A stretch of 29,560 bases of DNA. It comes from a virus. The notes below the pieces were generated by a model. That model did no database searches. It saw only the letters and a list, made by a program, of their open reading frames with translations, and was not told the origin of the DNA. This document shows, piece after piece, positions 6,341 through 26,941 of the stretch. Positions within the stretch are counted from its first letter, which is position 1. Each line of letters starts with the position of its first letter. The stretch is taken from positions 1-29,560 of the IMG/VR virus record IMGVR_UViG_3300030103_000465, one strand, 5' to 3'. The position numbers were made by a program, and so were the translations under genes.

Positions 6341-6388
6341 TATAACGTACCTGATATAACGTATCTAGTTGTTTAAGGTATATAACGT
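6341..6388 (-). promoter_or_regulatory. Three inverted copies of the ACGTTATA late-promoter core
   Basis: TATAACGT, the reverse complement of ACGTTATA, occurs at 6341-6348, 6355-6362 and 6381-6388 inside the 108-nt gap between the holin and ninG. Each copy sits in a longer match ('ATATAACGTA'). Unlike the five + strand late promoters, none has the A-rich block 12 nt upstream on its own strand. No minus-strand gene starts to the left. They may be binding sites, weak antisense promoters or a late/early boundary element. The rest of the gap is AT-rich with a T-run at 6416-6423 before ninG and no convincing host promoter. Confidence 0.5.
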
Positions 6389-8861: not shown

Positions 8862-9318
8862 AGATTGGTTACGCATAGTTAAGAGCTTTGGATGTGAGGG
8901 AGACAAATGCGAGGATATTGTTCAAGAGATGTATATCAAAGTACATACTCTAATAAGTAACGGCACAGATATAAGCTATGGCGATGAGATAAACCATTTC
9001 TATATATACAGAATATTAAGATCGTTGTTTATAGATTTATGTCGCAAAGAAGCAAAGATTACAAAAGTAAACGTAGAATACTTAGAAAAGTTTGTAGAGG
9101 AAGAAGAAGTAAAACAATACAAAGACATAGAGGGCAAAATGAAAGAATTAGATAGTGTACTTGATAAAATTTATTGGTATGACAAGAAAGTATTTGATTT
9201 AATTTCTGGTGGTATGAGTATAGCAGAACTATCTAAAAACTCAGGAATCAGTTATTATTCGTTATATAATACATACAAGAATGTTAAAAATCTAATAAAA
9301 GAAAATATAGAATGGTAG
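8827..9318 (+). CDS. Small sigma-70-family-like transcription factor
   Basis: A 163-residue protein. A region-2-like segment contains CEDIVQEMYIKVHTLI (28-43) and HFYIYRILRSLFIDLCRKEA (57-76), the DIVQE...R..IDLCRK pattern of small sigma factors. A C-terminal region-4-like helix-turn-helix is YDKKVFDLISGGMSIAELSK (118-137) with SGISYYSLYNTYKNVKNLIK. The start is TTG 8827: an in-frame stop lies 6 nt upstream and the next in-frame ATG falls inside region 2. It overlaps the helicase by 35 nt. It would direct RNA polymerase to phage promoters; the ACGTTATA element found before late genes is the obvious candidate target. Alternative: a sigma-like regulator that does not initiate transcription. Confidence 0.75.
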   Translation: MTTLEKIAQKHKDWLRIVKSFGCEGDKCEDIVQEMYIKVHTLISNGTDISYGDEINHFYIYRILRSLFIDLCRKEAKITKVNVEYLEKFVEEEEVKQYKDIEGKMKELDSVLDKIYWYDKKVFDLISGGMSIAELSKNSGISYYSLYNTYKNVKNLIKENIEW

Positions 9319-13382: not shown

Positions 13383-13791
13383 CGATAATTGGGAAACACC
13401 GAAAGAACTTTACGATGAGTTAAATGATGAATTTGATTTTAATTTTGATCCTTGCCCTATAAACCACGATACGACAAAATGGGATGGACTACAAATAGAT
13501 TGGAAAGAAAGAAACTTTATCAATCCTCCTTACAGTAGAAAACTAAAAGAAGCGTTTGTAAAAAAAGCTATACAAGAATCTAAGAAAGGTAAACTATGTG
13601 TGTTACTATTGCCTGTATCTACAAGCACTAAACTATTTCACGATTACATACTGCCAAACAAAAAAGAAATAAGATTTATAAAGGGTAGAGTAAAATTTAT
13701 AGGCTATAACACATTTGGACAAAAGGTTACAGATAAAGCAGGTATGCACGATAGTATGATTGTAGTCTTGAAACAAAATATTGAAAACTAA
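13357..13791 (+). CDS. dam: Phage N6-adenine methyltransferase, Dam family
   Basis: A 144-residue protein of the compact phage Dam family: NWETPKELYDELNDEFDFNF (11-30), DPCPINHD (31-38), the catalytic NPPYS (56-60), and KKGKLCVLLLPVSTSTKLFH. It methylates adenine N6 in phage DNA, probably to evade restriction or to mark replicated DNA. It is the second methyltransferase in a row and differs in family from the first. The upstream block of the first late promoter (13771-13778) lies in its last codons. Its TAA shares base 13791 with the ACGTTATA element. Confidence 0.85.
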   Translation: MKNRNLNHSDNWETPKELYDELNDEFDFNFDPCPINHDTTKWDGLQIDWKERNFINPPYSRKLKEAFVKKAIQESKKGKLCVLLLPVSTSTKLFHDYILPNKKEIRFIKGRVKFIGYNTFGQKVTDKAGMHDSMIVVLKQNIEN

Positions 13792-13798
13792 CGTTATA
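13771..13798 (+). promoter_or_regulatory. Late promoter element, terminase operon
   Basis: AAACAAAA (13771-13778), exactly 12 nt, ACGTTATA (13791-13798). This is the first copy of the bipartite element shared by five late genes. Here the nearest ATG is 28 nt from the core, not 6, so the mRNA would carry a short ~22-nt leader containing a palindrome. Confidence 0.65.
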
Positions 13799-13800
13799 TA

Positions 13801-13814
13801 ATTGATTAATCAAT
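13801..13814 (+). promoter_or_regulatory. 14-bp perfect palindrome over the predicted late start site
   Basis: ATTGATTAATCAAT is a perfect inverted repeat 2 nt after the ACGTTATA core, covering the predicted transcription start (~13804). Its position fits an operator. None of the other four late promoters has it. Confidence 0.45.
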
Positions 13815-13825
13815 CTTTTTCAATT

Positions 13826-14068
13826 ATGGATAAAAGAATAAACAATGGGGGAAAGCGTGAGGGTGCAGGTAGAAAGCCTAAGACAGAAGAAATCAAACTA
13901 TTAGAAAAACTCACACCACTTGAGCCTTTAGCATTTGAAGCTCTTAAAAAAGGTTTAGAGAAAGGCGACTTTAAATATGTACAACTATACTACAACTATG
14001 TAGCAGGTAAACCAAAAGAAACAAAGGACATACACATAAACGAAGATGTACCTTTATTTATTGATTAA
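13826..14068 (+). CDS. terS: Terminase small subunit-like protein
   Basis: Starts at ATG 13826 (MDKRINNGGKREGAGRKPKT); an in-frame TTG at 13802 lies inside the palindrome and is less likely. The 80-residue product has the 'NGGKREGAGRKPK' N-terminus found in many phage small terminases and DNA-binding proteins. A helical oligomerisation region follows (LEPLAFEALKKGLEKGDFKY, VQLYYNYVAGKPKETKDIHI). Small terminases recognise the packaging site and regulate the large subunit. Direct adjacency to terL (TAATG) supports the role. It is shorter than typical TerS proteins. Confidence 0.75.
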   Translation: MDKRINNGGKREGAGRKPKTEEIKLLEKLTPLEPLAFEALKKGLEKGDFKYVQLYYNYVAGKPKETKDIHINEDVPLFID

Positions 14069-15237
14069 TGCAAGTAACCAAAACCTCAGCACTACTTAAA
14101 CTCAGAGAACTTGAGAAACGAGTTCGTATAATTAGAGGAGGCTCATCAGCAGGTAAGACAATAGCAATCATAGCAATACTTATAGACTATGCAATTCGCA
14201 ACAAGGGAAAAGAAATAAGCATAGTAGCTGAATCAATACCACACTTGCGTAGAGGTGCTTTAAAAGACTTCTTAAACATCTTAAAGGGGTTGAATAGGTA
14301 TGATGATAGAAAGTTCAATAAAAGTACCTTAAAATACGAATTTAGTAATGGTAGCTATATAGAGTTCTTTAGTACAGATCAGCCAGACAAACTAAGAGGC
14401 GCAAGAAGAACAGACTTATTTATAAACGAGTGTAACAATGTTAGCTTTGATTCCTACCAACAACTAGCAGTTAGAACATCAGGTAACATATGGCTTGACT
14501 ACAATCCTGCTAATTTGTTTTGGGTAGACAAAGAACTAATAGGACAGCAAGATGCGAACTTCATAACCTTAACTTACAAAGATAACGACAGCCTACCAGA
14601 GTCAATAATAAAAGAAATAGAAAAAGCAAAAGAGAAGGGTAAAACCTCAACCTATTGGGCGAATTGGTGGAAAGTGTACGGACTAGGGCAGATAGGTAGT
14701 TTAGAGGGTGTATGTATTCCTGATTGGAAACCTATAGACAATATACCACAAGAAGCAAGATTACTTTGCTCAGGCTTAGACTTTGGTTATTCTGTAGATC
14801 CCTCAACAATCATTAGACTATACAAATGGAATGATGCTTATATCTTTGATGAAGTGCTTTACCGAAAGGGTATGTTAAATAGAGATTTAAGTTACTTCAT
14901 CAAACAGAACGAGATACGAGAAAACATATACGCAGATAGTGCAGAGCCTAAGTCTATTCAGGAGCTGAGGAACTACGGACACAAAGTATTCCCTGTAACA
15001 AAGGGTAGAGATTCTATAGTCTACGGAATAAACCTAATTAACCAAAACGAAATCTACATTACATCTAGTTCTAAGAATCTAATTATGGAGCTGCAAGGTT
15101 ATGTTTGGGATAAAGACAAAGAGGGTAACAATCTACAAAAACCTACAGGTACACACCCTGATTGTATAGATGCAGCACGATACGCTTTAATGATGCAACT
15201 AAAGAATCCAAATAGAGGACAATATGCAATAAGGTAA
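14068..15237 (+). CDS. terL: Terminase large subunit
   Basis: A 389-residue packaging motor (Terminase_3/PBSX-like type). The ATPase domain has Walker A GGSSAGKT (24-31) and Walker B DLFINE (116-121, catalytic Glu121), with a coupling-type region near IWLDYNPANLFWVD (141-154). The RNase-H-fold nuclease domain has acidic residues in SGLDFGYSVDP (Asp238), IYADSAEP (Asp290) and THPDCIDAARYA (Asp365/Asp368). It translocates DNA into the prohead and cuts concatemers. Unusually, the next structural gene is a tail chaperone, not the portal, after a 545-nt non-coding gap. Confidence 0.95.
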   Translation: MQVTKTSALLKLRELEKRVRIIRGGSSAGKTIAIIAILIDYAIRNKGKEISIVAESIPHLRRGALKDFLNILKGLNRYDDRKFNKSTLKYEFSNGSYIEFFSTDQPDKLRGARRTDLFINECNNVSFDSYQQLAVRTSGNIWLDYNPANLFWVDKELIGQQDANFITLTYKDNDSLPESIIKEIEKAKEKGKTSTYWANWWKVYGLGQIGSLEGVCIPDWKPIDNIPQEARLLCSGLDFGYSVDPSTIIRLYKWNDAYIFDEVLYRKGMLNRDLSYFIKQNEIRENIYADSAEPKSIQELRNYGHKVFPVTKGRDSIVYGINLINQNEIYITSSSKNLIMELQGYVWDKDKEGNNLQKPTGTHPDCIDAARYALMMQLKNPNRGQYAIR

Positions 15238-15267
15238 ATGTTAAAGAAATGTTAAAATTATGTTAAA
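15238..15267 (+). repeat. Three ATGTTAAA direct repeats at 11-bp spacing
   Basis: ATGTTAAA occurs at 15238-15245, 15249-15256 and 15260-15267, an exact 11-bp period (one helical turn). A near copy in inverse orientation (ATTAACAT) is at 15289-15296. The array starts at the base after the terL stop and precedes the ncRNA promoter. It looks like an iteron or regulator-binding array. Confidence 0.55.
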
Positions 15268-15281
15268 GTGTATATAGGGTA

Positions 15282-15311
15282 TTGTTTTATTAACATTTGT
15301 TTGTATATTTG
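15282..15311 (+). promoter_or_regulatory. Host-type promoter of the non-coding RNA
   Basis: TTG (15282-15284), 19 nt, TATATTTG (15304-15311). This fits the Bacteroidota TTG-N19-TANNTTTG pattern exactly. The predicted start is about 15316-15319. The 14-mer ATTAACATTTGTTT within the spacer also occurs before the gene at 10525. Confidence 0.65.
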
Positions 15312-15434
15312 AAGTGTAATTAATTTTACAATGTTCTTTAAAATATTGAAAGTCAAACAAGGAAATTTGTCTACATAGAGATATGTATGAGAAGCGAGTA
15401 GTAGTGTCTGAGATAGTGGCATTAATATTTGAGT

Positions 15435-15443
15435 TGTGGATAA
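15435..15443 (-). promoter_or_regulatory. Exact consensus DnaA box (reverse strand)
   Basis: TGTGGATAA, the reverse complement of TTATCCACA, lies in the internal loop of the ncRNA's long stem. With the iteron-like array upstream and a phage DnaA-domain-IV-like gene, it suggests an origin here. A single 9-mer can occur by chance in a window this size. Confidence 0.4.
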
Positions 15444-15717
15444 TGAAACGGAGGTGCAATTCCTCCACTCGGTATTAATCGAGTTAGTGTAGCAGCAATC
15501 ACGCAGATGATTATACGAGTTTAAGCTCATTACTTAAACAAAATTATAATTTCGAAACAACAAAAGAATATACTCGGACAACGGATGGTAAAGGGACAAC
15601 CCAACCATTAAAGACTCAGAAGTGTAACCAGCAAGTCGCATAGCTGGGAGGTTAGAAAAGATAATGCGCATCTTGATAACTTACTGGAGTACCTAACTTA
15701 TTTGACATTTATTAAAT

Positions 15718-15746
15718 AACCCTCGCAGATATGTGGGGGTTTTTTT
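15718..15746 (+). terminator. Intrinsic terminator of the ncRNA
   Basis: AACCCTCGC (15718-15726) pairs with GTGGGGGTT (15733-15741), nine pairs including two G-U, around the loop AGATAT. Ts follow to 15746. It separates the RNA from the late promoter starting at 15750. Confidence 0.85.
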
Positions 15747-15749
15747 ATG

Positions 15750-15777
15750 CTCTAAAACTTTTTTTTCTTACGTTATA
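15750..15777 (+). promoter_or_regulatory. Late promoter element, tail operon
   Basis: CTCTAAAA (15750-15757), 12 nt, ACGTTATA (15770-15777), then 5 nt to ATG 15783. Directly follows the terminator, so tail genes get a fresh transcript. Predicted start at the A of the ATG. Confidence 0.75.
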
Positions 15778-15782
15778 TATAT

Positions 15783-16430
15783 ATGAAAGTAGAGGTATAT
15801 ATTCCAGATACTCTAAGCGAGATAACCTTAGGGCAATATCAAAAGTATCTAAAGATACAATCTGAGAACGATGACGAGAACTTCTTAGCTATGAAAATGA
15901 TTGAAATATTTTGTGGACTGAGAGGCGACACAATACTAGCTATGAAAGCTAAAAGTATAAAAGACATAACAGCTATTCTTACTAATATGTTTAACGAAAA
16001 ACCTCAGCTAGTAAAAGAATTTAAAATGGGTAGCAAGACTTATGGCTTTATCCCAAAACTAGAAGATATGAGTTTTGGTGAATATATTGATCTTGATACC
16101 TACATTAGTGATACTGACAATTTACATAGAGCTATGGGTGTTTTATATCGTCCTATTAAACAAAAATACGGAGACAAATATCTTATAGAAGATTATAATG
16201 GTGAAGAAACTGATATTATGAAATCTATGCCTATGGATGCTGTATTAAGTTCTATTATTTTTTTTTATCATTTAGGGATGGAATTGTCTCAAGCTATGAT
16301 GAACTCTTTGGAGGAGGAGGAGATAGCCTTACTGCATCAGCAAATTTTGGGAGAAAATGGGGATGGTATCAATCACTTTTCGGACTCTCTCAAGGAGATA
16401 TTACAAGATTTAAAGATATCACTAAACTAA
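15783..16430 (+). CDS. Tail assembly chaperone (frame 0 product)
   Basis: A 215-residue protein resembling tail assembly chaperones of flavobacterial siphophages: ITLGQYQKYLKIQ, KMIEIFCGL, MGSKTYGFIPKLEDMSFGEY, IDLDTYISD, LYRPIKQKYGDKYLIEDYNG, MPMDAVLSSIIFFYHLGMEL. The C-terminus (ILGENGDGINHFSDSLKEIL) is also protein-like. A second conserved-looking frame (-1) overlaps its 3' end and continues past its stop, as expected for chaperones made in a short and a frameshifted long form that coat the tape measure protein. It starts 5 nt after a late promoter core, with no ribosome-binding site visible. Confidence 0.75.
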   Translation: MKVEVYIPDTLSEITLGQYQKYLKIQSENDDENFLAMKMIEIFCGLRGDTILAMKAKSIKDITAILTNMFNEKPQLVKEFKMGSKTYGFIPKLEDMSFGEYIDLDTYISDTDNLHRAMGVLYRPIKQKYGDKYLIEDYNGEETDIMKSMPMDAVLSSIIFFYHLGMELSQAMMNSLEEEEIALLHQQILGENGDGINHFSDSLKEILQDLKISLN

Positions 16431-16519
16431 ACGTACACGAATGTTTATATGCACTTAGCTTTATGAAAGAAAAAGCAGAGTTAGAAGCAAAACAAATGAA
16501 AAGCAAAATGAGAAAATGA
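16214..16519 (+). CDS. -1 frame extension of the tail assembly chaperone
   Basis: The -1 frame is open from 16214 (after TGA 16211-16213) to TGA 16517-16519 and contains no ATG, GTG or TTG before an ATG at 16463. Its last part reads NFGRKWGWYQSLFGLSQGDI, TRFKDITKLNVHECLYALSF, MKEKAELEAKQMKSKMRK. That is a pattern I know from chaperone long forms (FG.KWGWYQS...GLS.GDIT.F...T.L..HECL..LSF.KEK.ELEAK). It must be reached by a -1 shift from the upstream frame. A run of nine Ts (16258-16266) gives an in-frame slippery T-TTT-TTT at 16259-16265 inside the window allowed; the exact slip site is inference. The stop overlaps the next ATG. Confidence 0.65.
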   Translation, partial: YYEIYAYGCCIKFYYFFLSFRDGIVSSYDELFGGGGDSLTASANFGRKWGWYQSLFGLSQGDITRFKDITKLNVHECLYALSFMKEKAELEAKQMKSKMRK

Positions 16520-16989
16520 GCAATCAAGGAGTAAGAGGCTATTATCAAATAACACAAACTATTAAGACTAATCTCTTAGCAGATGAGAATGTCAATACAG
16601 TAACCACAGGTGATATATTCGACATAGACTTATCTAAGCAAACAATATTTCCTTTAAGTCATATAATAGTAAACAACGTAAGTATACAAGAACAAGTCCT
16701 TAACTTTAACATTACTATAATGTGTATGGATATAGTAGACGAATCTAAAGACGAAACAACAGACATATTTAGAGGCAACAACAATGAGCAAGATATACTA
16801 AACACACAATTAGCCGTAGCTAATAAGTTAGTGGGATTGTTAAGCAAAGGCACACTATATCAAGACAAATATCAGTTATCTGGTGATGCAAGTTGTGAGT
16901 TTTTTTATGAAAGGTTTGAGAATAGAATGGCAGGTGTAGCTTGTACGTTTAATGTATTGATTGCAAATGATATAAACGTATGCAGTTAA
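16516..16989 (+). CDS. Tail/neck completion-type structural protein
   Basis: A 157-residue protein starting in an ATGA overlap with the chaperone extension. Typical segments are GYYQITQTIKTNLLADENVN, DLSKQTIFPLSHIIVNNVSI and SCEFFYERFENRMAGVACTF-NV. The 'F.ERFENRMAG' motif recurs in conserved phage proteins encoded next to gp10-like connectors. The position suggests a tail terminator or head-tail joining protein. It overlaps the next gene by 10 nt. Confidence 0.6.
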   Translation: MSNQGVRGYYQITQTIKTNLLADENVNTVTTGDIFDIDLSKQTIFPLSHIIVNNVSIQEQVLNFNITIMCMDIVDESKDETTDIFRGNNNEQDILNTQLAVANKLVGLLSKGTLYQDKYQLSGDASCEFFYERFENRMAGVACTFNVLIANDINVCS

Positions 16990-17474
16990 AAGAAGTCAAA
17001 GAGGAATTAAATAAGTTTGGAAAGTTTGTAGTACAACAAGCTAGGACACGACTTACAAAAAGCAAAAAAAACGTAAGCAAGAAACTATACAACAGTTTAA
17101 ATTATACAATTAATGAAAGCGATACCTCAACAAGTATAATCTTTGAAATGGAGGACTATGGTAAGTTTCAAGATGAGGGGGTTAGTGGAACTAAAAAAAA
17201 ATACAACACACCTTATAGTTATAAGTCTAAAATGCCTCCTAGTAAAGCATTTAGTCAATGGGTAGTTAGAAAAGGTTTGAAGGGTGTAAGAGATGATAAA
17301 GGTAGGTTTATAAAACGTAAGAGTATGCAATACTTAATAGCTAGAAGCATTTTTACACACGGAATAAAACCAACTATGTTTTTTACAATACCCTTTAATC
17401 AAGCGTTTGAGAAACTACCTCCTGAGTTACAAGAAAAATTTGGTATAGATATAGAAAACATAATATTTGAATAA
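16980..17474 (+). CDS. HK97 gp10-like connector/neck protein
   Basis: A 164-residue protein: LKEVKEELNKFGKFVVQQAR, TRLTKSKKNVSKKLYNSLNY, EMEDYGKFQDEGVSGTKKKY, PYSYKSKMPPSKAFSQWVVR, KPTMFFTIPFNQAFEKLPPE. The 'YGKFQDEGVSG' and 'FFTIPFNQAFEKLPPEL' segments are typical of the HK97-gp10-like family in Bacteroidota phages. Such proteins sit at the head-tail junction and set tail completion. It overlaps the next ATG by one base (TAATG). Confidence 0.7.
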   Translation: MQLKEVKEELNKFGKFVVQQARTRLTKSKKNVSKKLYNSLNYTINESDTSTSIIFEMEDYGKFQDEGVSGTKKKYNTPYSYKSKMPPSKAFSQWVVRKGLKGVRDDKGRFIKRKSMQYLIARSIFTHGIKPTMFFTIPFNQAFEKLPPELQEKFGIDIENIIFE

Positions 17475-18418
17475 TGGCTAATATACTACTTAGAAGTCCG
17501 TATTTTGTTACAATCACTACAGGTGGGCATTTGTCTGCACAATTAGCATTAACGATAGATGGTACACTTAGATACACAATACTTAAAAACGCAGTAAGCA
17601 ATAGAACAGTATTTGAGATTGCTACTTTAGCTAAGGATTATTATATAGACGATTATGGTGGTAGTACAGGTGCTACTTTTGATACTGTAGCTATATCTTA
17701 TGTAGTTACTACTTTTACGGCTGTAGATGGTGGAGGCACAGGCACAGCTCAGGGTGCAGTAACACATACAGGTTTCTATGGATATTCTGATTTCTGGAGT
17801 GGTGTAAATCAAGACATAGATCCTGACGACTTTGAACTAACAAATACAGGTGGTAGTCAAGTAATATACTTACCAGACAATACAGCAGGGTTTGCTTGGG
17901 ATATGAACTCAGGCACACCAACAAGAGTAGCTATAGGTACAAGTGATACTAGCAAAGCTGCAACATCTGGCAATTACACTTGGACTATTGAAAGAATATG
18001 TAGTCCTAAATACACACCTATACAGATGAGGTTTATAAATAAAAATGGCGCACCTCAGGACTTTTACTTTTTCTTAAAATCTGTAGAAAGCGTAAACACA
18101 AAAAGCGAAACATTTAAACGTAACATATTTGTACAATCCTCATCAAACTATAGTACAACAAATCACCAAACAAAAACATTTAACAAAACAGGCAAAAAAC
18201 GATTTACATTAAATACTAATTATTTAATTGAGGCATATAATGACGTAATAGAAGATATAATGCTAAGTGAGTATGTATGGGTTAAGATTGGTAATGATTT
18301 CCACCCTGTTACAGTTATAACAAGCTCATTAGTTAAAAAGACATCAGTTAATGATAGATTAATGCAATATACTTTAGAAGTAGAAGATGCTAACGATATT
18401 ATCAATAATATACTATAA
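17474..18418 (+). CDS. Phage tail structural protein (314 aa)
   Basis: Beta-rich protein beginning MANILLRSPYFVTITTGGHL-SAQLALTIDGTLRYTI, with FEIATLAKDYYID, then a variable Gly/Thr-rich stretch, and a conserved C-terminal part (WTIERICSPKYTPIQMRFIN, KNGAPQDFYFFLKSVESVNT, KSETFKRNIF). I recognise this as a family regularly encoded before the large tail protein and tape measure in flavobacterial siphophages. A distal-tail or baseplate role is likely but not proven. TAATG joins it to the next gene. Confidence 0.6.
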   Translation: MANILLRSPYFVTITTGGHLSAQLALTIDGTLRYTILKNAVSNRTVFEIATLAKDYYIDDYGGSTGATFDTVAISYVVTTFTAVDGGGTGTAQGAVTHTGFYGYSDFWSGVNQDIDPDDFELTNTGGSQVIYLPDNTAGFAWDMNSGTPTRVAIGTSDTSKAATSGNYTWTIERICSPKYTPIQMRFINKNGAPQDFYFFLKSVESVNTKSETFKRNIFVQSSSNYSTTNHQTKTFNKTGKKRFTLNTNYLIEAYNDVIEDIMLSEYVWVKIGNDFHPVTVITSSLVKKTSVNDRLMQYTLEVEDANDIINNIL

Positions 18419-20517
18419 TGAAGCGTGAGGTACAATTATTCATACAAGATACTAGAGTTGATTTGTTCCAAGATGAAACAATTAGTGTTACTGATTCGAT
18501 ACAAAATGTTTCAGACATAAGTAAAGTATTTACACCTTTTTCAAAACAGTTTAATGTACCTGCATCCTCAACAAACAACAAACTATTTAAGCATTACTAT
18601 AACTTTGATATTCAAGATGGTTTTGATGCTAGGTTTACAGTAAGTGCAAGAATCGAAATAAACCACGTTCCTTTTAAATCAGGTAAGCTAAGGTTAAATG
18701 GTGTAGGTATGAAAAACAATCTACCACATACATATAAGGTAGTATTTTTTGGTGAGCCTAATAGTCTTAAAGAGCTTTTTGGAGATGAGGACTTGAGTAG
18801 TTTAAATGGTTTATCTACCTATGATATAAAAAGCGACACAGTAACAGGAGACGTTGAAGACGCTTTTAAGACAGGTTTACAAAGTACAGGATTAAATGCT
18901 ACGAATATAAGCAATCGAAATATTGTAGTTCCTTTAATTACGCTACAAAACTATTACTCTTATGACACACCAAGTACAAATAGGCTAGATAATGTATTGT
19001 TTAGTAATCTAAAAAAAGAATTAAAACCTGCGATTAAAGTCTTACGAATTATAGAAGCTATACAAACACAATATAACTTAACCTTTAATATGTCAGATGA
19101 TGGCAGTCTAAAAACTTTTTTTGGTAGTGATGTATTTGATGAATTATATCTTTGGTTACATAGACAAAAAACTCCACACAATGATTTAAACAGCACAACA
19201 CAATCTTTTGGTATAAACTATAATTCTTTAGGAGTTAAAAAAACTTTGAGTGATTATACTATAATATCTGGAGGTGGAACGGATGTGTTATCTGGTGGTA
19301 AACTTACAATCAATGAGGGTGAGTCTTATTCGTTAAGGTTTAGGTTTATTGCAAGTTCAGCTAACGTACCAATAGAAATAGTTTCCAAAGACAAAACAAC
19401 AAACGAGTTACTAGGTGTACAAGAGAGAATCACAACAGCAGGTGCAATGACAGTTTCTTTTATAGGTTTAACAAGTGGTAATTTATCTTCTAGGGTTTTT
19501 GATCCAGAGATTAGATTTAACAATAACACAAACCAAGCTATAAGTTTTTCTGCACAAACAACTTTATTAAATTTTGGTTTAGAAATAGATAAAACTGTTA
19601 ACGGAGTTACAACACAACATTTTTACGCTAATAATTCGTTTCAATTAGCATATATGATTTTTATACAAGATTACCTACCCAAAATAAAAGTCATAGATTT
19701 TCTTACAGGATTGTTTAAGATGTTTAACCTAGTTGCTTATAGCAAGAAAGGTACAAGTACAATATTTGTACAAACCTTTGACGATTTTATGACATTAGGA
19801 ACATCAAGAGATATAACAGAATACATAGACATAAATCAAAGTACGATAGATCGTCCTGTTCCATACAATCAAATAAACTTTAAATATTCACCACCTGTAA
19901 CTCAAACAAGTTTAAGATTTATAAATGATTATGCCCAAGTATTCGGAGACTTAAATTATTCATCACCAGAAAAGTATGATGGACAAGCATTCAACATAGA
20001 TGTGCCTTTTGAAAGAAGTGTACTTATAAATTTAAGAGATAACTCTGGGGTTTTAACAAATAACGTACTAGCTTGGTGGGTAGATGCAGATAGTAAAACA
20101 ACTTTAGGTAAACCATATTTGTTCTTTAATAGGTTGATAGATTCTAGTAGCAACACAATTACAACAGGTAATTTTACAAGTTATAATGCAGCATCAAATG
20201 TATCAAGCGATGAAAACCACACATTAAATTTTGGTGCAGAGTATGATGAGTTTAACAAAGATATAAATGCAAATAGTTTGTTTAGTAGATTCTATGAGCA
20301 ATATGTTGTACAAACCTATAATCAAAATGGTAGAATTATAAAGGTATCTGCTAATTTACCTATAAGTTTTGTTTTGAACTATGGAGTAAATGACATCATC
20401 GTAATAAACGGACAAGAGTATTATATAAACTCAATACAAACAGATTTAACAACAGGCAAATCACAATTAGAATTAATAGTAAAAAAGGTTGCCTATACAA
20501 ATAGTGTACTAACGTGA
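18418..20517 (+). CDS. Large phage tail protein (699 aa)
   Basis: Starts MKREVQLFIQDTRVDLFQDE, then SVTDSIQNVSDISKVFTPFS and KQFNVPASSTNNKLFKHYYN. That N-terminal signature belongs to a large tail protein family in Bacteroidota phages. The middle is Ser/Thr/Asn-rich beta structure. Towards the C-terminus are KVIDFLTGLFKMFNLVAYSK and NGQEYYINSIQTDLTTGKSQ, which look like a baseplate-hub/tail-associated domain. No peptidase motif is obvious. Probably part of the tail tip or baseplate. It is the longest gene in the window and overlaps a small gene at its stop. Confidence 0.65.
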   Translation: MKREVQLFIQDTRVDLFQDETISVTDSIQNVSDISKVFTPFSKQFNVPASSTNNKLFKHYYNFDIQDGFDARFTVSARIEINHVPFKSGKLRLNGVGMKNNLPHTYKVVFFGEPNSLKELFGDEDLSSLNGLSTYDIKSDTVTGDVEDAFKTGLQSTGLNATNISNRNIVVPLITLQNYYSYDTPSTNRLDNVLFSNLKKELKPAIKVLRIIEAIQTQYNLTFNMSDDGSLKTFFGSDVFDELYLWLHRQKTPHNDLNSTTQSFGINYNSLGVKKTLSDYTIISGGGTDVLSGGKLTINEGESYSLRFRFIASSANVPIEIVSKDKTTNELLGVQERITTAGAMTVSFIGLTSGNLSSRVFDPEIRFNNNTNQAISFSAQTTLLNFGLEIDKTVNGVTTQHFYANNSFQLAYMIFIQDYLPKIKVIDFLTGLFKMFNLVAYSKKGTSTIFVQTFDDFMTLGTSRDITEYIDINQSTIDRPVPYNQINFKYSPPVTQTSLRFINDYAQVFGDLNYSSPEKYDGQAFNIDVPFERSVLINLRDNSGVLTNNVLAWWVDADSKTTLGKPYLFFNRLIDSSSNTITTGNFTSYNAASNVSSDENHTLNFGAEYDEFNKDINANSLFSRFYEQYVVQTYNQNGRIIKVSANLPISFVLNYGVNDIIVINGQEYYINSIQTDLTTGKSQLELIVKKVAYTNSVLT

Positions 20518-20657
20518 TAAAAAATATATTAGACTTATTGCCTTATGCAAAAGGCGAAACAGAAAACATAAAAATAGCTAAGGGTAAATACAAACACCCA
20601 GAGAGTATAAAGGAAGCATACAACGATTTTAAAAAACAAATATGGCAAAAGAAGTAA
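20514..20657 (+). CDS. Small hypothetical protein (47 aa), GTG start
   Basis: GTG at 20514 overlaps the preceding TGA (GTGA), and TAA at 20655-20657 lies 16 nt into the tape measure gene. The product is MIKNILDLLPYAKGETENIK-IAKGKYKHPESIKEAYNDFK-KQIWQKK, basic and helical. It fills the otherwise untranslated 124 nt before the tape measure. No family recognised. Confidence 0.5.
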   Translation: MIKNILDLLPYAKGETENIKIAKGKYKHPESIKEAYNDFKKQIWQKK

Positions 20658-22447
20658 ACATAGAATTAAAGGTAGATTCTAAGTCAGCAGAGGAAGATAT
20701 CAAAAAAGTCAATGAAGAAGTTGATAAATTAAACAAAAACTTAGAAGAACAAGGTAAAGCAGGTAAAAAATCTACACGAGGTTTTGGAGGTTTAAGCAAA
20801 GGCGTTAGAGGATTTGGTATGGCATTAAAAGCAGCAGGTATTGGTGCAGTAGTAGCTTTGTTTGGTGCATTAGCAGCAGCACTATCTAAGAATCAAAAAG
20901 TAATGGATACTGTAGCAATAGTTACAGGCACAATCTCACAAGTATTTACTGAAGTTGGAAATGTACTAGTTTCTGTATATGAAAACGTATCAACCTCTAC
21001 AGAAAACTTTGATGCTTTAGGTAGGGTTGCAAAAAATGTAATGACAATAGCATTAACTCCTATAAAATTGTCTTTTAATGCTATCAAAGCTGCAATAGTT
21101 GGCGCACAATTAGCTTGGGAACAGTCTTGGCTTGGTGGTAATGATCCTGAAAGAATTGCAGAACTAAAACAAGAACTTAGCGACATAAAAGAGGATGTTA
21201 TAGAAATAGGAACTGATGCAGTAGAAGCAGGTGGTAATATAATAAAAGATTTTGGAGAAGCAGTAAATGAAATTTCTGATATATCATCACAGGTAGTAGA
21301 GGGCGTCAGTAAAATAAACGTAAAAGCTATTGCAGAAAATGTTAAGGCAAATGAACAACTTAAAGTAGCAGCTAATGAAGCAAGAATAGTAAATCAAGGT
21401 TTAATAGAACAATACGATAGTCAAGCTGAACAATTAAGAAGAATAAGAGATAATGATTTAATCAACATTGAAGATAGGGTAAAAGCAAATGATAAATTAA
21501 AAGAAACACTTTTAGAACAAAAAAGATTAATGTTAGAAAATGTTGAAACAATGATTCAACAAGCAGAAAAGCAATTCGAATTAAGTGGTTTAGAAGAAGA
21601 TAGGTTAGCATTATTAGAAGCAAGAAACGAAAAGAAAGCAGTAGAAGCTCAAATAGATGGTTTTATGTCAGAGCAAGAATCTAACAGGGTTTCTTTAATA
21701 AAGGAAAGATTAGAATTACAACAATCGGAGGCTGAAGCTGTAGCTAATAGACAAAATGAAGAAAGAAACTTTAATGCTGAAATGGAGGAAAACGAAGTCA
21801 GAAGAATACAAATGATGTTAGATAATCTTGAGATAGAAAGAGGAGTTGAAGAAGAAAGATTAAGAATTAAAAGAGATTCATACGAGGAGGGTACACAAGC
21901 ATTTATAGATGCAAACAATGAACTACTAGACTACCAACAAGCAAGTGCAAACACGCAAGAAAAATTAGAAAAAGATTTAGATGAGGGTAAAAAGGGTAGG
22001 ATGCAAAAATTAATGGGTGATTTAGTTACTATTGTTGGTAAAAATTCAAAGTTTGGTAAAGCTATTGCAATCGTACAAGCCTTACAAGACACTTACGCAG
22101 GTGCAAACAAAGCCTTAGCACAAGGTGGTATATTTGGTTTTGTAGGTGCAGCAGCAGTAATAGCAGCAGGTATAGCAAATGTAAAAAACATTACATCATC
22201 TAAAACACCAAATCCTCCTGCATCATTAGGCGCAAGATCCACAGGTGGAGAAAGCACACCTACTATCCCAGCAGCAACTACACCATCACTACCTCCACAA
22301 TTTAGTACAGTAGGAGCAAGTGGTACAAATCAACTAGCTGAGTTGTTAGGTAATCAACCACCACCAAGAGCATTTGTAGTATCAGGAGATGTAAGTACAG
22401 CGCAAGAGCTTGACAGAAATATTGTAACAAGTGCAAGTTTAGGATAA
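20642..22447 (+). CDS. Tape measure protein
   Basis: A 601-residue, mostly alpha-helical protein. Charged coiled coil lies at residues 1-45, a hydrophobic segment at ~58-82 (GIGAVVALFGALAAALS), long coiled coil at ~220-470, a second hydrophobic stretch (GIFGFVGAAAVIAAGIANVK), a Pro/Thr-rich linker, and a C-terminus AFVVSGDVSTAQELDRNIVT-SASLG. That C-terminus (VSGDV.TAQELDRN) is characteristic of tape measure proteins of flavobacterial phages. It sets tail length and probably aids DNA ejection. At ~600 residues the tail should be short by siphovirus standards, or only part of the length is measured. Confidence 0.85.
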   Translation: MAKEVNIELKVDSKSAEEDIKKVNEEVDKLNKNLEEQGKAGKKSTRGFGGLSKGVRGFGMALKAAGIGAVVALFGALAAALSKNQKVMDTVAIVTGTISQVFTEVGNVLVSVYENVSTSTENFDALGRVAKNVMTIALTPIKLSFNAIKAAIVGAQLAWEQSWLGGNDPERIAELKQELSDIKEDVIEIGTDAVEAGGNIIKDFGEAVNEISDISSQVVEGVSKINVKAIAENVKANEQLKVAANEARIVNQGLIEQYDSQAEQLRRIRDNDLINIEDRVKANDKLKETLLEQKRLMLENVETMIQQAEKQFELSGLEEDRLALLEARNEKKAVEAQIDGFMSEQESNRVSLIKERLELQQSEAEAVANRQNEERNFNAEMEENEVRRIQMMLDNLEIERGVEEERLRIKRDSYEEGTQAFIDANNELLDYQQASANTQEKLEKDLDEGKKGRMQKLMGDLVTIVGKNSKFGKAIAIVQALQDTYAGANKALAQGGIFGFVGAAAVIAAGIANVKNITSSKTPNPPASLGARSTGGESTPTIPAATTPSLPPQFSTVGASGTNQLAELLGNQPPPRAFVVSGDVSTAQELDRNIVTSASLG

Positions 22448-22473
22448 ACAAAAAAATAATTTAATACGTTATA
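22446..22473 (+). promoter_or_regulatory. Late promoter element, head-protease operon
   Basis: AAACAAAA (22446-22453), 12 nt, ACGTTATA (22466-22473), then 5 nt to ATG 22479. The upstream block partly overlaps the tape measure stop codon. Identical in the A-block to the terminase copy. Confidence 0.8.
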
Positions 22474-22478
22474 CATAT

Positions 22479-24050
22479 ATGAGAATCGTTGAACTTATTT
22501 TAGGAGATGATGAGCTAACAGGAATTGAAGCTATATCTGTAGTAGAAAACCCTGCAATAGAAGAAGATTTTATAGCTTTAAAAAACGAAGAAATAAAACT
22601 AGCAGAGGTTGATAAAGAAAAGCGTATTCTTATGGGTGCTTTGCTTATACCTAACAAACCTATCTATCGTAAAAAAGGTGATGAGGAATATTACATATAT
22701 TTCTCAAAAGATACAGTAGCCAAAGCATCACAGCTTTACTTAATGAATGGCAATCAGTCAAAAGCCACATTAGAACACCAACATACGATTAACGGATTAA
22801 CATTAGTAGAATCTTGGCTAGTAGAAGATGATGTACACGATAAATCAAGAAAGTATGGATTAAATGTGCCTGTAGGTACTTGGATGGGTGCAGTAAAAGT
22901 AAACAATGATGATATTTGGAATAACTTTGTAAAAACAGGTAAGGTTAAGGGTTTTAGTATAGAGGGTTACTTTGCAGATAAAATGGAACGTCCTAAAGAG
23001 CCTGTAAACGACTTTGAAGAAGAAGAAGCAGAAGAAATGTTATCTGTAATAAGATCAATCATAAGAGAGGACAAGCGTTTGAAAGGTGGTAAGCGTAGAG
23101 AACTTGAGGCTTATAGCGATTACCCTAACGGAGTAAAGAACAACGCAAAAAGAGGCATAGAATTAAACGAGAAAGTAAATAACAAGTGTGCTACACAAGT
23201 AGGTAAGATACGAGCTAAACAACTTGCACAAGGAAAACCAATCTCAAAAGAAACAATAAAGAGAATGTACTCTTTTTTAAGTAGAGCAGAAGAATATTAT
23301 GATGAGGGAGATTCTAAAGCGTGTGGCACTATATCCTATTTACTTTGGGGTGGTAAAGCTGGTTTGAGATGGGCAGAATCTAAACTCAAAGAGTTAGGAG
23401 AGATAGAATTAGCTAGTATGATTGTAAATGACGAGTTTGCAATTATTGACGATAGACTAGCATACTCAACTCAAGAGAAAGCTGAGGAGATGGCTAAGAA
23501 CATAGGTTGCGAGGGTTTTCATACCCACGACTTCGAGGGCAAGACTTGGTATATGCCTTGTGAGTTTCACATTAAAGAGGATATGAAGAAATGCCCTAAG
23601 GGTTTCAAAAAAGTCTATGGTAAGTGTGTAAAAATGGCTGAGGTAGGCGAAAGAGGTGGTATAAAGAAATCTCCTAAAGCACCAAAGTCAGATACACCAA
23701 ACCCAAACCCAAAAGGCAAAGGAACAGCAAAAGGAGATGCCTCAACAACAAGAGGTGCTAAGGTATCTAAAAAAGATGAAGCGACTTTAAAAAAAAAGTC
23801 TGATGACTTCAACGAGAGATACAAAAAGAAATTAGGTTATGGTGTAAATGTAGGAATGTTAAAGGCAGTATTCCAAAGAGGTTTAGGTGCGTTTAATGTT
23901 TCAAGAAGTCCTAGAGTTTCTAGTGCTTCACAATGGAGTTTTGCAAGGGTAAATGCTTTTTTATATTTAGTAAAAAATGGACGTCCACAAAACAAAAAGT
24001 ACACAGGTGATAATGATTTATTACCAAAAGGACATCCAAAGAAACCATAA
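22479..24050 (+). CDS. XkdF-like prohead protease fused to accessory domains
   Basis: A 523-residue multidomain protein. Residues ~1-175 (VVENPAIEEDFIALK, LMGALLIPNKPIYRKKGDEE, ATLEHQHTINGLTLVESWLV, GTWMGAVKV, GFSIEGYF) match the XkdF/Peptidase_S78_2 putative prohead serine protease; His in LEHQH and Ser in GFSIEGYF are the likely catalytic pair. Residues ~208-305 (YSDYPNGVKNNAKRGIELNE, PISKETIKRMYSFLSRAEEY, ISYLLWGGKAGLRWAESKLK) form a phage-specific helical domain. A Lys-rich linker leads to a C-terminal DUF5824/DUF5872-like domain (MLKAVFQRGLGAFNVSRSPR, ASQWSFARVNAFLYLVKNGR). The protease matures the capsid; roles of the other domains are unknown. It starts 5 nt after a late promoter core. 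Confidence 0.75.
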   Translation: MRIVELILGDDELTGIEAISVVENPAIEEDFIALKNEEIKLAEVDKEKRILMGALLIPNKPIYRKKGDEEYYIYFSKDTVAKASQLYLMNGNQSKATLEHQHTINGLTLVESWLVEDDVHDKSRKYGLNVPVGTWMGAVKVNNDDIWNNFVKTGKVKGFSIEGYFADKMERPKEPVNDFEEEEAEEMLSVIRSIIREDKRLKGGKRRELEAYSDYPNGVKNNAKRGIELNEKVNNKCATQVGKIRAKQLAQGKPISKETIKRMYSFLSRAEEYYDEGDSKACGTISYLLWGGKAGLRWAESKLKELGEIELASMIVNDEFAIIDDRLAYSTQEKAEEMAKNIGCEGFHTHDFEGKTWYMPCEFHIKEDMKKCPKGFKKVYGKCVKMAEVGERGGIKKSPKAPKSDTPNPNPKGKGTAKGDASTTRGAKVSKKDEATLKKKSDDFNERYKKKLGYGVNVGMLKAVFQRGLGAFNVSRSPRVSSASQWSFARVNAFLYLVKNGRPQNKKYTGDNDLLPKGHPKKP

Positions 24051-24169
24051 TGGCTAGAAAAGTCGTTAATATATATATAAAGAATAAACGTAAATCACAC
24101 CCTCATAGCAAAAATGCGAGTGTAGGACAAACAGGTTATAAAAAAAAATATAGAGGACAAGGTAGATGA
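24050..24169 (+). CDS. Small basic protein (39 aa)
   Basis: ATG at 24050 overlaps the protease stop (TAATG) and TGA at 24167-24169 overlaps the next ATG (ATGA). The product is MARKVVNIYIKNKRKSHPHS-KNASVGQTGYKKKYRGQGR, very basic. The 'RKSHPHSKNASxGQxGYKKKYRGQG' pattern is one I associate with short conserved proteins in flavobacterial phages. It could bind DNA or capsid scaffolding. Role unknown. Confidence 0.7.
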   Translation: MARKVVNIYIKNKRKSHPHSKNASVGQTGYKKKYRGQGR

Positions 24170-24297
24170 AAAAATTTGAAACACCAAGTAAGACAAGTCC
24201 AAGAGGAGGGCGTAGAGGTTGTTTATGTAAAGATGAAACCTATTCAGTAAAGTGCTGTAAGGGTAATATAATAAATCAAGGGATAGGTAAAGTATAA
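24166..24297 (+). CDS. Small cysteine-rich protein (43 aa)
   Basis: ATG 24166 to TAA 24295-24297. MKKFETPSKTSPRGGRRGCL-CKDETYSVKCCKGNIINQGI-GKV. The GCLC...KCC cysteine cluster followed by 'NQGIG' recurs in small phage proteins of Bacteroidota (recalled). Four cysteines could bind zinc or form disulfides. It sits between protease and scaffold genes, so a minor virion or assembly role is possible but unproven. Confidence 0.65.
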   Translation: MKKFETPSKTSPRGGRRGCLCKDETYSVKCCKGNIINQGIGKV

Positions 24298-24299
24298 AA

Positions 24300-24327
24300 A
24301 TGCAAATATAAATTTTAACACGTTATA
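24300..24327 (+). promoter_or_regulatory. Late promoter element, scaffold/capsid operon
   Basis: ATGCAAAT (24300-24307), 12 nt, ACGTTATA (24320-24327), then 5 nt to ATG 24333. The upstream block is the weakest match (AAAT rather than AAAA), but the spacing is exact. Confidence 0.7.
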
Positions 24328-24332
24328 GTAAT

Positions 24333-24917
24333 ATGAAATCAACAGAAATCTTAAACAAAATCAAAACTTTCTTAGGAGAGGAGATACAAGAAGAAACTCA
24401 ACTTACAGAGGAAGTATTAGAACTAGCACAATTAAAGCTAGAGAACGGAACAACTTTAGAAGCTGATTCTTTTGAAGAAGGTAAAGAAGTTTTTATTCTT
24501 ACTGAAGATGAAAAAGTAGCTGTACCAAAAGGTGAATACCTAATGGAAGATGGCAGAATGTTAGTAGTCGAAGAAGAAGGACTTATAGCAGAAATTAAAG
24601 CTGCTGAAGAAAAAGAGCCTACAGTAGAAGAAGAAGATAGAACAGATGCAGAAGAAGAAAAAGAAGAAATGCAATATGTTCGTAAAGAAGAATTTGAAAA
24701 TGCCGTTGAGGAAATCAAAGGTATGATCAAAGAGCTAAAGGAAGAAAAGAAAGAGAAAGAAGAAATGGCAGAGCAAGTTAAAGAAGAACTTAGTAAAACT
24801 CCTGCTGTAGAGCCTATCTCTCACAATCCAGAAGCTAAACAAGAATTTAAAGTAAGATTCGGACAAAACAGAAAAGAAACTGCTTTAGATAGAGTAATGA
24901 AAAAATTAACCAATTAA
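24333..24917 (+). CDS. Capsid scaffolding protein
   Basis: A 194-residue, extremely acidic protein. A beta-rich N-terminal part (LENGTTLEADSFEEGKEVFI, GEYLMEDGRMLVVEEEGLIA) is followed by Glu-rich coiled coil at ~85-158 (EEEDRTDAEEEKEEMQYVRK, MIKELKEEKKEKEEMAEQVK). The C-terminal segment (PISHNPEAKQEFKVRFGQNR, KETALDRVMKKLTN) is basic and would dock onto capsid protein. Location directly between protease and major capsid genes is the standard place for scaffold. 5 nt after a late promoter core. Confidence 0.8.
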   Translation: MKSTEILNKIKTFLGEEIQEETQLTEEVLELAQLKLENGTTLEADSFEEGKEVFILTEDEKVAVPKGEYLMEDGRMLVVEEEGLIAEIKAAEEKEPTVEEEDRTDAEEEKEEMQYVRKEEFENAVEEIKGMIKELKEEKKEKEEMAEQVKEELSKTPAVEPISHNPEAKQEFKVRFGQNRKETALDRVMKKLTN

Positions 24918-24927
24918 ATTTTAAAAA

Positions 24928-25851
24928 ATGCCAAATCCAACAATTACAGGTAGTAGTTATGCAGGAGAATTTGCAGGTAAATATATTGCTGCATCTTTAT
25001 TAACAGCAAAGACTTTAGATGATGCTGCTATTACTATTCTACCTAACATTAAGTACAAAGCTGCTATGAAAGTAGGAGCTTTCTCAAGTTTAGTAAGAAG
25101 TGCTGATTGTGATTTCGATTCAACGACTTCAGGACTTACACTTACTGAAAAAGTATTAACTCCAACTGAGTTACAAGTAAACCTACAGATTTGTAAGAAA
25201 GAATTACACGCTGACTGGGAAGCTGCTCAAATGGGCTTTTCTGCTTTTGATAATTTACCTCCATTATTTTCTGACTTTGTTATCGCAAGAGTAGCAGCAG
25301 AGGTTGCAAGTGCAACTGAAACTTCTATTTGGAGTGGTAGTGCAGGAGAGGGTAACTTTGATGGTTTTGTAACATTAGCAACAGCAGATGGAACTGTGAA
25401 TGATGTAACAGCAGGAACAGTTACTTCAGCTAACGTAATCGCAGAATTAGGTAAAATCGTTGATGCTATTCCATCAGGAGTTTACGGAGCTGATGATCTT
25501 ATTATTTATGTATCACAAAACATCTATAGAGCTTACATTAGAGCTTTAGGTGGTTTCGGTGCATCAGGTTTAGGAGCAGCAGGTTACGAGAATAGAGGTA
25601 ACAACCAATCATTAGATAACTTATTCTTTGATGGTGTAAGAATCTATCCATCTTCAGGTTTTGGAGATAACCAAGCAATTGCTGCAAGATCAAGTAACTT
25701 ATTCTTTGGTACAGGTTTATTGAATGACAGAAACGAAGTAAAAGTTATCGATATGTCAGATATAGACGGAAGTCAAAATGTAAGAGTAGTAATGAGATAT
25801 ACAGCAGGATGCCAAATCGGTGTAGGTGCTGATGTAGTTCTTTACGACTAA
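24928..25851 (+). CDS. Major capsid protein
   Basis: A 307-residue protein with HK97-fold capsid characteristics: the N-terminal arm MPNPTITGSSYAGEFAGKYI, LPNIKYKAAMKVGAFSSLVR, LTPTELQVNLQICKKELHAD-W, ATETSIWSGSAGEG, then a spine-helix region VIAELGKIVDAIPSGVYGAD and the C-terminal NVRVVMRYTAGCQIGVGADV-VLYD. It follows the scaffold by 10 nt and is followed by a strong terminator, consistent with a highly expressed unit. Codon use is visibly more regular (GCT, GGT, TTA rich) than neighbours, as expected for an abundant protein. Confidence 0.85.
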   Translation: MPNPTITGSSYAGEFAGKYIAASLLTAKTLDDAAITILPNIKYKAAMKVGAFSSLVRSADCDFDSTTSGLTLTEKVLTPTELQVNLQICKKELHADWEAAQMGFSAFDNLPPLFSDFVIARVAAEVASATETSIWSGSAGEGNFDGFVTLATADGTVNDVTAGTVTSANVIAELGKIVDAIPSGVYGADDLIIYVSQNIYRAYIRALGGFGASGLGAAGYENRGNNQSLDNLFFDGVRIYPSSGFGDNQAIAARSSNLFFGTGLLNDRNEVKVIDMSDIDGSQNVRVVMRYTAGCQIGVGADVVLYD

Positions 25852-25882
25852 TAAATTAAATTAAATTAACATATAAAGGGGT

Positions 25883-25908
25883 GGGTAGTATTCTGCCTAC
25901 CCTTTTTT
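25883..25908 (+). terminator. Intrinsic terminator after the major capsid gene
   Basis: GGGTAG (25883-25888) pairs with CTACCC (25897-25902) around an 8-nt loop, followed by TTTTTT. It lies 31 nt after the capsid stop and 14 nt before the tail tube ATG, so it can limit read-through from the capsid operon. Confidence 0.8.
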
Positions 25909-25922
25909 AATACTTAGAAAAT

Positions 25923-26447
25923 ATGGCTTGTTTATTAACTAAAGGTAGAGCTTTACCCTGTAAATCAGGAGTAGGTGGATTAAAGTCCGTTTACTTTACA
26001 GATTATGGTGGGTTAGGAGCTATCACAATTGCCTCTAATGAGATTACAGCTATAGCAGGAACACCAACAGTATATCAGTTTGACATCAAAGGTACTTCTA
26101 CGCTAGAAACTTCTGTTACTTCATCAAGAGAAAATGGTACAACATTTTACGAAAGCACATTAACACTTAACTTTACATTCTTAGAAAAAGACACACAAGC
26201 TGAGATACAATTACTTGCAGTAGCTCGTCCTCACATTTGGGTAGAAGATTACAATGGTAATTATTTCTTAGTAGGTAAAGAACACGGAGCAGAGCTTACT
26301 TCTGGTACATTTTCAAGTGGCGCAGCTATGGGTGATCTTTCTGGTTACTCGTTAACGTTTGTTGCACAAGAAACTGCACCACCAGACTTTACAGCAGCAA
26401 GTGTTGTTACAGGTGCTAATCAAGGTACAAAAATAACACCTAATTAA
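25923..26447 (+). CDS. Major tail (tube) protein
   Basis: A 174-residue protein: MACLLTKGRALPCKSGVGGL-KSVYFTDYG, YQFDIKGTSTLETSVTSSRE, NGTTFYESTLTLNFTFLEKD, RPHIWVEDYNGNYFLVGKEH, GAELTSGTFSSGAAMGDLSG-YSLTF. The LTKGR.LPCK start and the GKEHGAELTSG...MGDLSGY ending are typical of tail tube proteins in flavobacterial siphophages. Tube subunits stack into the tail conduit. It has no late-promoter motif of its own and sits just after a terminator, so it may depend on partial read-through. Confidence 0.75.
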   Translation: MACLLTKGRALPCKSGVGGLKSVYFTDYGGLGAITIASNEITAIAGTPTVYQFDIKGTSTLETSVTSSRENGTTFYESTLTLNFTFLEKDTQAEIQLLAVARPHIWVEDYNGNYFLVGKEHGAELTSGTFSSGAAMGDLSGYSLTFVAQETAPPDFTAASVVTGANQGTKITPN

Positions 26448-26509
26448 AATTAATTTCGTATATTGAAGAAAATTTAGAGTTTTCATAATTTTTAAATTAG
26501 TTTTGTTTT

Positions 26510-26540
26510 AAAGGGGAGTTTTCGGACTCCTCTTTTTTTT
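26510..26540 (+). terminator. Intrinsic terminator after the tail tube gene
   Basis: AAAGGGGAGT (26510-26519) pairs with ACTCCTCTTT (26526-26535), ten pairs with one G-U, around TTTCGG, followed by Ts. It is immediately upstream of the next late promoter (26543). Confidence 0.85.
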
Positions 26541-26542
26541 AT

Positions 26543-26570
26543 ACACAAAATCTAAAGTTTGTACGTTATA
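26543..26570 (+). promoter_or_regulatory. Late promoter element, portal operon
   Basis: ACACAAAA (26543-26550), 12 nt, ACGTTATA (26563-26570), then 5 nt to ATG 26576. It follows a terminator directly, the same arrangement as at 15718-15777. Confidence 0.8.
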
Positions 26571-26575
26571 TAAGT

Positions 26576-26941
26576 ATGATACACTTAACGACAACTGCAT
26601 CAGCTCAAACTATAAAAATAATACCTAGAAGTTATGCTTCAAGTGTTACTATGATATTAAGAGATGATTCAACAAACACATCAACAACATATTCAAGCGT
26701 AAGTGCTTCAACAGATAAAAATTATCTAGTAATATCAAAGGCTTTAAGTCCTGTATTAGTAGACGGTAGATTCTATGATTTGACAGTAAAAGAGGGAGCA
26801 AGTGTAATATATAAAGACAAGATATTTTGTACAAGTCAAACTGTAAACCAAGCAAATAATGACTACTACACAGTTAATAGTGGGGAATACACAATTCCAA
26901 CAGGAAATGACAAACACGATAACGATTATATAATTGTATGA
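26576..26941 (+). CDS. Structural protein of unknown role (121 aa)
   Basis: Beta-rich, Ser/Thr-rich protein: MIHLTTTASAQTIKIIPRSY-ASSVTMILRDDSTNTSTTYS, VDGRFYDLTVKEGASVIYKD, KIFCTSQTVNQANNDYYTVN. The 'IIPRSY...VIYKDKIFCTSQ' pattern appears in small conserved proteins encoded beside portal genes in flavobacterial phages (recalled). A minor head, neck or tail role is likely. It is the first gene after a late promoter and ends in ATGA with the portal gene. Confidence 0.6.
   Translation: MIHLTTTASAQTIKIIPRSYASSVTMILRDDSTNTSTTYSSVSASTDKNYLVISKALSPVLVDGRFYDLTVKEGASVIYKDKIFCTSQTVNQANNDYYTVNSGEYTIPTGNDKHDNDYIIV

Follow-up and report, generated by a model that had tools for sequence, protein, structure and literature searches.

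What drives transcription of the packaging and structural genes in the genome of an uncultured marine phage, IMGVR_UViG_3300030103_000465, an IMG/VR record whose 29,560 nucleotides (nt) form the window analysed here? A preliminary description, made from the sequence alone, had proposed a bipartite late promoter in which an A-rich block is followed, 12 nt downstream, by ACGTTATA. The promoter reading is supported, and we consider it highly probable that host core RNA polymerase uses the five plus-strand sites as late promoters by means of an extracytoplasmic function (ECF)-type sigma factor that the phage itself encodes. This sigma factor, which very probably reads the sites, had been overlooked.

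A bipartite element before packaging and structural genes

The window search places ACGTTATA on the plus strand at 13791, 15770, 22466, 24320, and 26563, so that all five claimed copies are found. At every site, exactly 12 nt separate the end of the A-rich block from ACGTTATA, the blocks reading, in site order, AAACAAAA, CTCTAAAA, AAACAAAA, ATGCAAAT, and ACACAAAA, and at the four sites from 15770 onward ACGTTATA ends 5 nt before an ATG; both spacings agree with the earlier claims.

The first putative late promoter (13771 to 13798, plus strand) consists of AAACAAAA (13771 to 13778), the 12-nt spacer, and ACGTTATA (13791 to 13798), which shares bases with the stop codon of the DNA methyltransferase gene preceding it. 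It lies upstream of terS and terL, with 27 nt between ACGTTATA and the terS ATG (13826), and is present at terS in relatives too. The second (15750 to 15777, plus strand) joins CTCTAAAA (15750 to 15757) by the same spacer to ACGTTATA (15770 to 15777), ahead of the ATG at 15783, the predicted +1, of a conserved gene of unknown function (15783 to 16430), whose orthologues in relatives have the promoter in the same upstream position. The remaining three, also on the plus strand and with the same spacer, precede a head maturation protease-like gene (22446 to 22473, with ACGTTATA at 22466 to 22473; ATG 22479), an operon with a virion structural protein (24300 to 24327, with ACGTTATA at 24320 to 24327; ATG 24333), and an operon with the portal gene (26543 to 26570, with ACGTTATA at 26563 to 26570; ATG 26576). 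We infer late timing for the five sites from this gene content. Sites that precede packaging and structural genes, with a sigma factor open reading frame (ORF) in the same window, are a feature of phage late-sigma systems of the 7-11 and phiEco32 type. The TAnnTTTG -7 box of Bacteroidota sigma-A promoters is absent at all five sites, as the preliminary description had noticed.

The comparison with shuffled sequence that had been suggested as a check was made with 200 dinucleotide shuffles of the window. ACGTTATA alone occurs five times on the plus strand and three times on the minus strand, with a shuffle mean of 1.2. With the A-box 12 nt upstream, the counts become five and zero (shuffle mean, 0.02), and the full pattern, with ATG after a further 5 nt, is found four times on the plus strand, never on the minus strand, and in none of the 200 shuffles.

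A probable phage sigma factor and the promoter in relatives

The proposed reader of the late promoters is encoded on the plus strand at 8827 to 9318 and has 163 amino acids; residues are numbered with the TTG start at 8827 as M1, and the candidate specificity residues are K38, S66, and D70. Among PHROG families, the ORF matches RNA polymerase sigma factor (E value, 1.1e-6), and its match to Sigma70_r2 is weak, with 22.4 bits against a Pfam cutoff of 24 (E value, 1e-4). The profile search gives no Sigma70_r4 match, only weak generic helix-turn-helix profiles. The AlphaFold (AF2) model, with a predicted local distance difference test (pLDDT) score of 83.7, shows helices at residues 3 to 77 and 101 to 160, separated by a low-confidence linker at 79 to 97. 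Two helical domains with a disordered linker, as modelled, fit the layout of ECF (group 4) sigma factors, which have only sigma2 and sigma4 with a flexible linker between them. The best PDB fold matches are SigE, SigL, RpoE, SigH, and E. coli sigmaE, all of the ECF type. Their global template modelling (TM) scores are low (0.3 to 0.45), which is expected because the two domains are placed freely.

The promoter resembles ECF promoters in one of its two parts. The -10 elements of ECF promoters are of the type CGT or GTT, as in CGTTATA, and the sigma residues that correspond to SigH N88 and N92 change along with the bases. The GGAAC-like -35 element with a spacer of about 16 to 17 base pairs (bp) is not found; an AAAA box stands in its place, 13 to 15 nt from the CG. 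The description of a bipartite promoter with a -10-type element stands in its conserved grammar, and the element is revised to an ECF-type -10 (CGTT), not a sigma-70-type one.

The preliminary description had staked its proposal on conservation in related phages, and the motif is kept in hundreds of them. Searching IMG/VR with the terminase yielded at least 594 relatives, 80 of which were kept as a first set; a larger set of 387 loci came from searches with five different sigma proteins. In the first set, the coding strand carries 148 copies of ACGTTATA and the opposite strand 10, compared with 29 and 27 for a reversed-pattern control, and in 83 instances ACGTTATA lies exactly 5 nt ahead of an ATG. 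The 387 loci hold 334 coding-strand instances of AAAA-N12-15-CG[N]TATA followed by an ATG or a terS leader and no instance on the opposite strand, the distance to the ATG being 5 nt in 197 of 200 ATG cases and 6 nt in 3. The distance from AAAA to CG is 13 in the clade of the window and 13, 14, or 15 in others, according to sigma clade; the fixed 12-nt geometry holds within the window genome, and the spacing is 1 or 2 bases longer in some clades. Within L225 to L251 and L278 to L355, where this variation by sigma clade is seen, some clades with a distance of 14 have a shorter sigma linker, and there could be a relation between spacer and linker length.

Control loci with terminase relatives and no sigma (L396 to L423) have CG[TA]TATA-N5-ATG three times forward and three times in reverse, which is background, and the motif was not found in the cultured relative Fpv5, which lacks the sigma. 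For the more distant sigma clusters 3 to 6, general k-mer searches for a late promoter gave nothing clear; a view anchored on orthologous genes revealed a promoter for some of them, cluster 5 not included. Several of the loci L149 to L162, in which the sigma has 34 to 38% identity and no late promoter was recognised, carry repeats of TTAAACATAGTAGGT following the terminase gene. In L122 (clade D), the terminase is 28% and the sigma 62% identical to that of the window and the late promoter geometry matches, and the modules have therefore probably recombined. L010 carries a very divergent sigma-like ORF (927 to 1589) just upstream of terS, and its promoters are still ACGTTATA.

Cultured phages with related terminases (47% identity) infect Flavobacterium psychrophilum, and a genome scan with the terminase alignment matched mostly Bacteroidota metagenome-assembled genomes, none of them with the sigma; the host is thus probably a bacteroidote. 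The sigma alignment found no homologue in 84,980 scanned species genomes, and neither did tblastn searches of cultured phages with the sigma and three divergent sigmas. The nucleotide search of the window against phages gave no meaningful match. No phage single-subunit polymerase was noticed in the window, in which not every ORF was searched against families.

Proposed reading of the -10 element and predicted start of transcription

Alignment via SigR (1h3l) pairs S66 with SigH N88 and D70 with SigH N92. As seen in the open complex of SigH, N88 touches base -10 and N92 touches the -11 base pair of the G-11 T-10 T-9 element (PMC6411747). In the same numbering, the phage element reads C G T/A T, with G at -11 and the switching base at -10. 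The accessible part of PMC6411747 holds no mention of the SigH residue equivalent to K38.

In the first set of relatives, five sigma columns, including 38 and 66, separated phages with CGTTATA from those with CGATATA. In the larger set, residue 38 is the only column with perfect separation of T and A at promoter base -10, being K or R with CGTTATA (124 loci) and M, L, or I with CGATATA (17 loci). A role for S66 as the sole determinant of base -10, which fitted the first set, was rejected because some G66 phages in the larger set keep T. When columns 38 and 66 were left out of the sigma tree, A at -10 had at least two origins, each accompanied by a hydrophobic residue 38, and a single origin is disfavoured (approximately unbiased test, P = 0.045); a sign test cannot be significant because there are only two switch events. 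The DNA upstream of the orthologues of the gene at 15783 to 16430 gives a view independent of any motif pattern. Here, D70 goes with CG, Q70 with TA, and T70 with AG, and of the columns that best separate the two bases preceding -10, residue 70 takes the fewest states. With few lineages and one gene per genome, this pattern is a lead rather than proof. Overall, the sigma and the promoter signal appear to vary in step in hundreds of related viruses.

In the mechanism we propose, the sigma would be made from an earlier-expressed replication block and would direct host core RNA polymerase to the late promoters. Domain 4 of the sigma would contact the AAAA box at about -29 to -26, and domain 2 would recognise C-12 G-11 T-10 T-9 of ACGTTATA, opening the DNA at that point. 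Transcription would begin 11 nt past the G, giving leaderless late mRNAs at four genes and a leader of about 22 nt at terS. The computations establish the promoter grammar, its conservation, the sigma fold, and the covariation; timing, start sites, and use of the host enzyme are inferred. Counted from G at -11, the predicted +1 is the A of the ATG at 15783, 22479, 24333, and 26576, and G13804 at terS. On this count, the four late transcripts are probably leaderless, as the preliminary description had suggested for its sites; the suggestion agrees with ECF numbering at these genes and fails for the terS copy.

The promoter and sigma assignments could also be right with transcription starting a few bases before the ATG, giving leaders of 1 to 5 nt. 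ECF start sites may shift by one or two bases, and leaderless mRNAs account for only 5.5% in F. psychrophilum (PMC9723704), so that leaderless late mRNAs would be unusual. However, the SigH numbering falls on the A itself, the 5-nt distance is kept across sigma clades, and the sigmas of 7-11 and phiEco32 start transcription 6 to 9 bp from their elements (PMC8948821), a distance that corresponds here to the A of the ATG or to a position just inside the gene. We regard such short leaders as unlikely, though a case to be taken seriously.

The minus-strand copies of ACGTTATA, which the tally of the preliminary description had missed although its five plus-strand copies were right, bear on a different alternative. 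The three copies lie at 6341 to 6388, between the holin and NinG-like genes, and have no A-box, for which reason they were rejected as promoters. The array (TATAACGTACCTGATATAACGTATCTAGTTGTTTAAGGTATATAACGTAT) is also kept in L041, L089, and L119, and by sequence the copies look like a separate repeat array, operator- or iteron-like. Such an array would suit a motif bound by a phage or host activator or repressor, with host sigma-A starting nearby. This explanation is nevertheless improbable: the five sites lack the TAnnTTTG box, the position before the ATG is fixed in 197 of the 200 ATG cases, and the motif bases covary with DNA-reading residues of the sigma. A Kozak-like translation signal in the mRNA, which would suit the usual 5-nt distance to the ATG and the general lack of Shine-Dalgarno sites in Bacteroidota (PMC6847099), is scarcely credible, since the element lies 8 to 33 nt from the ATG at terS and in several relatives, is accompanied by an upstream box at fixed spacing, and follows the sigma in its sequence.

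Several observations weigh against late promoters read by the phage sigma. ACGTTATA by itself is not specific, because the three minus-strand copies break the promoter pattern, and the sequence similarity of the phage sigma to known sigmas is weak. The AAAA box is 3 to 5 bp nearer to the -10 element than the ECF -35 element is in SigH promoters. Some of the more distant sigma clusters, such as cluster 5, have no recognised promoter. Residue 66 by itself is not decisive, and independent covariation events are few, with two for base -10 and few lineages for residue 70. The rarity of leaderless mRNAs in F. psychrophilum counts on this side as well.

Neighbouring features and known sigma-promoter systems

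The terS leader (13799 to 13825, plus strand), between the first promoter and the terS ATG, contains the palindrome TTGATTAATCAA and a third TCAA copy, and the predicted +1 at about G13804 (SigH numbering) falls inside it. In the terS leaders of relatives, the three parts tend to change in concert (CTTGAATAATCAAG...CAAG and TTTGATTAATCAAAG...CAAAA). Terminator-like hairpins lie on the plus strand at 15718 to 15741 and 26510 to 26535, directly upstream of the second and fifth promoters, in line with the earlier remark that two copies directly follow intrinsic terminators. The region from 15312 to 15745 is noncoding, with strong predicted RNA structure (z score, -3.0) and a terminator; a Bacteroidota-type promoter, TTG-N19-TAnnTTTG, lies ahead of it at 15282. 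An Rfam scan of the window matched no family. Many relatives lack this region, and in them terL is directly followed by the late promoter.

Phages 7-11 and phiEco32 are already known to encode sigmas that have late promoters of their own. The 7-11 sigma SaPh711_gp47 has late promoters of the form GTAAtg-(16)-aCTA, and the authors of that study predicted further undescribed phage sigma-promoter pairs (both from PMC8948821). Common to 7-11 and the window phage are a phage sigma with region 4, a putative one in the window phage, and bipartite promoters upstream of late genes, with the host primary sigma in charge of early genes. The 7-11 system differs in its enterobacterial host and its consensus, and the part of PMC8948821 covered here reports no geometry fixed to the start codon. 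The phiEco32 sigma gp36 recognises tAATGTAtA without a -35 element (PMC4331800 and PMC8948821), and its -10 element also has a TATA-like end. It has no region 4 and is activated by gp79, whereas the window has a conserved A-box and a sigma with a C-terminal helical domain.

The bacterial ECF sigmas (M. tuberculosis SigH, SigE, and SigL and E. coli sigmaE) share with the phage sigma two domains with a flexible linker, a GTT- or CGT-type -10 element, and aligned residues reading -10 and -11. They are, however, cellular regulators, and SigH promoters have a -35 element with a spacer of about 17 bp, whereas the phage AAAA box is closer in. The ECF motif SM6 of F. psychrophilum has a CGT -10 box, as in the window promoters, but belongs to host genes (type IX secretion), with no ATG-fixed geometry reported (PMC9723704). 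The novelty lies in the class of promoter and its geometry relative to the start codon, in the group of phages, and in sigma residues and promoter bases that have switched together in nature.

To our knowledge, hardly anything is known of the early-to-late gene switch in Bacteroidota phages. The window provides a concrete sigma-promoter pair with predictions at the level of single residues and single bases, and it looks like one of the pairs predicted in the 7-11 study, spread over hundreds of virus contigs. On balance, we lean towards a broader view, in which marine Bacteroidota phages of a large, uncultured family make leaderless late mRNAs with their own ECF-type sigma, and the family's natural diversity is a readable specificity code, residues 38, 66, and 70 having switched repeatedly together with bases -10, -11, and -12 (CGTTATA, CGATATA, TATTATA, TATTGTA, and AGTTATA). 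The relatives are natural swaps for probing how ECF sigmas read the -10 element. If the predicted start sites are true, these phages would make leaderless late mRNAs in hosts where such mRNAs are probably rare.

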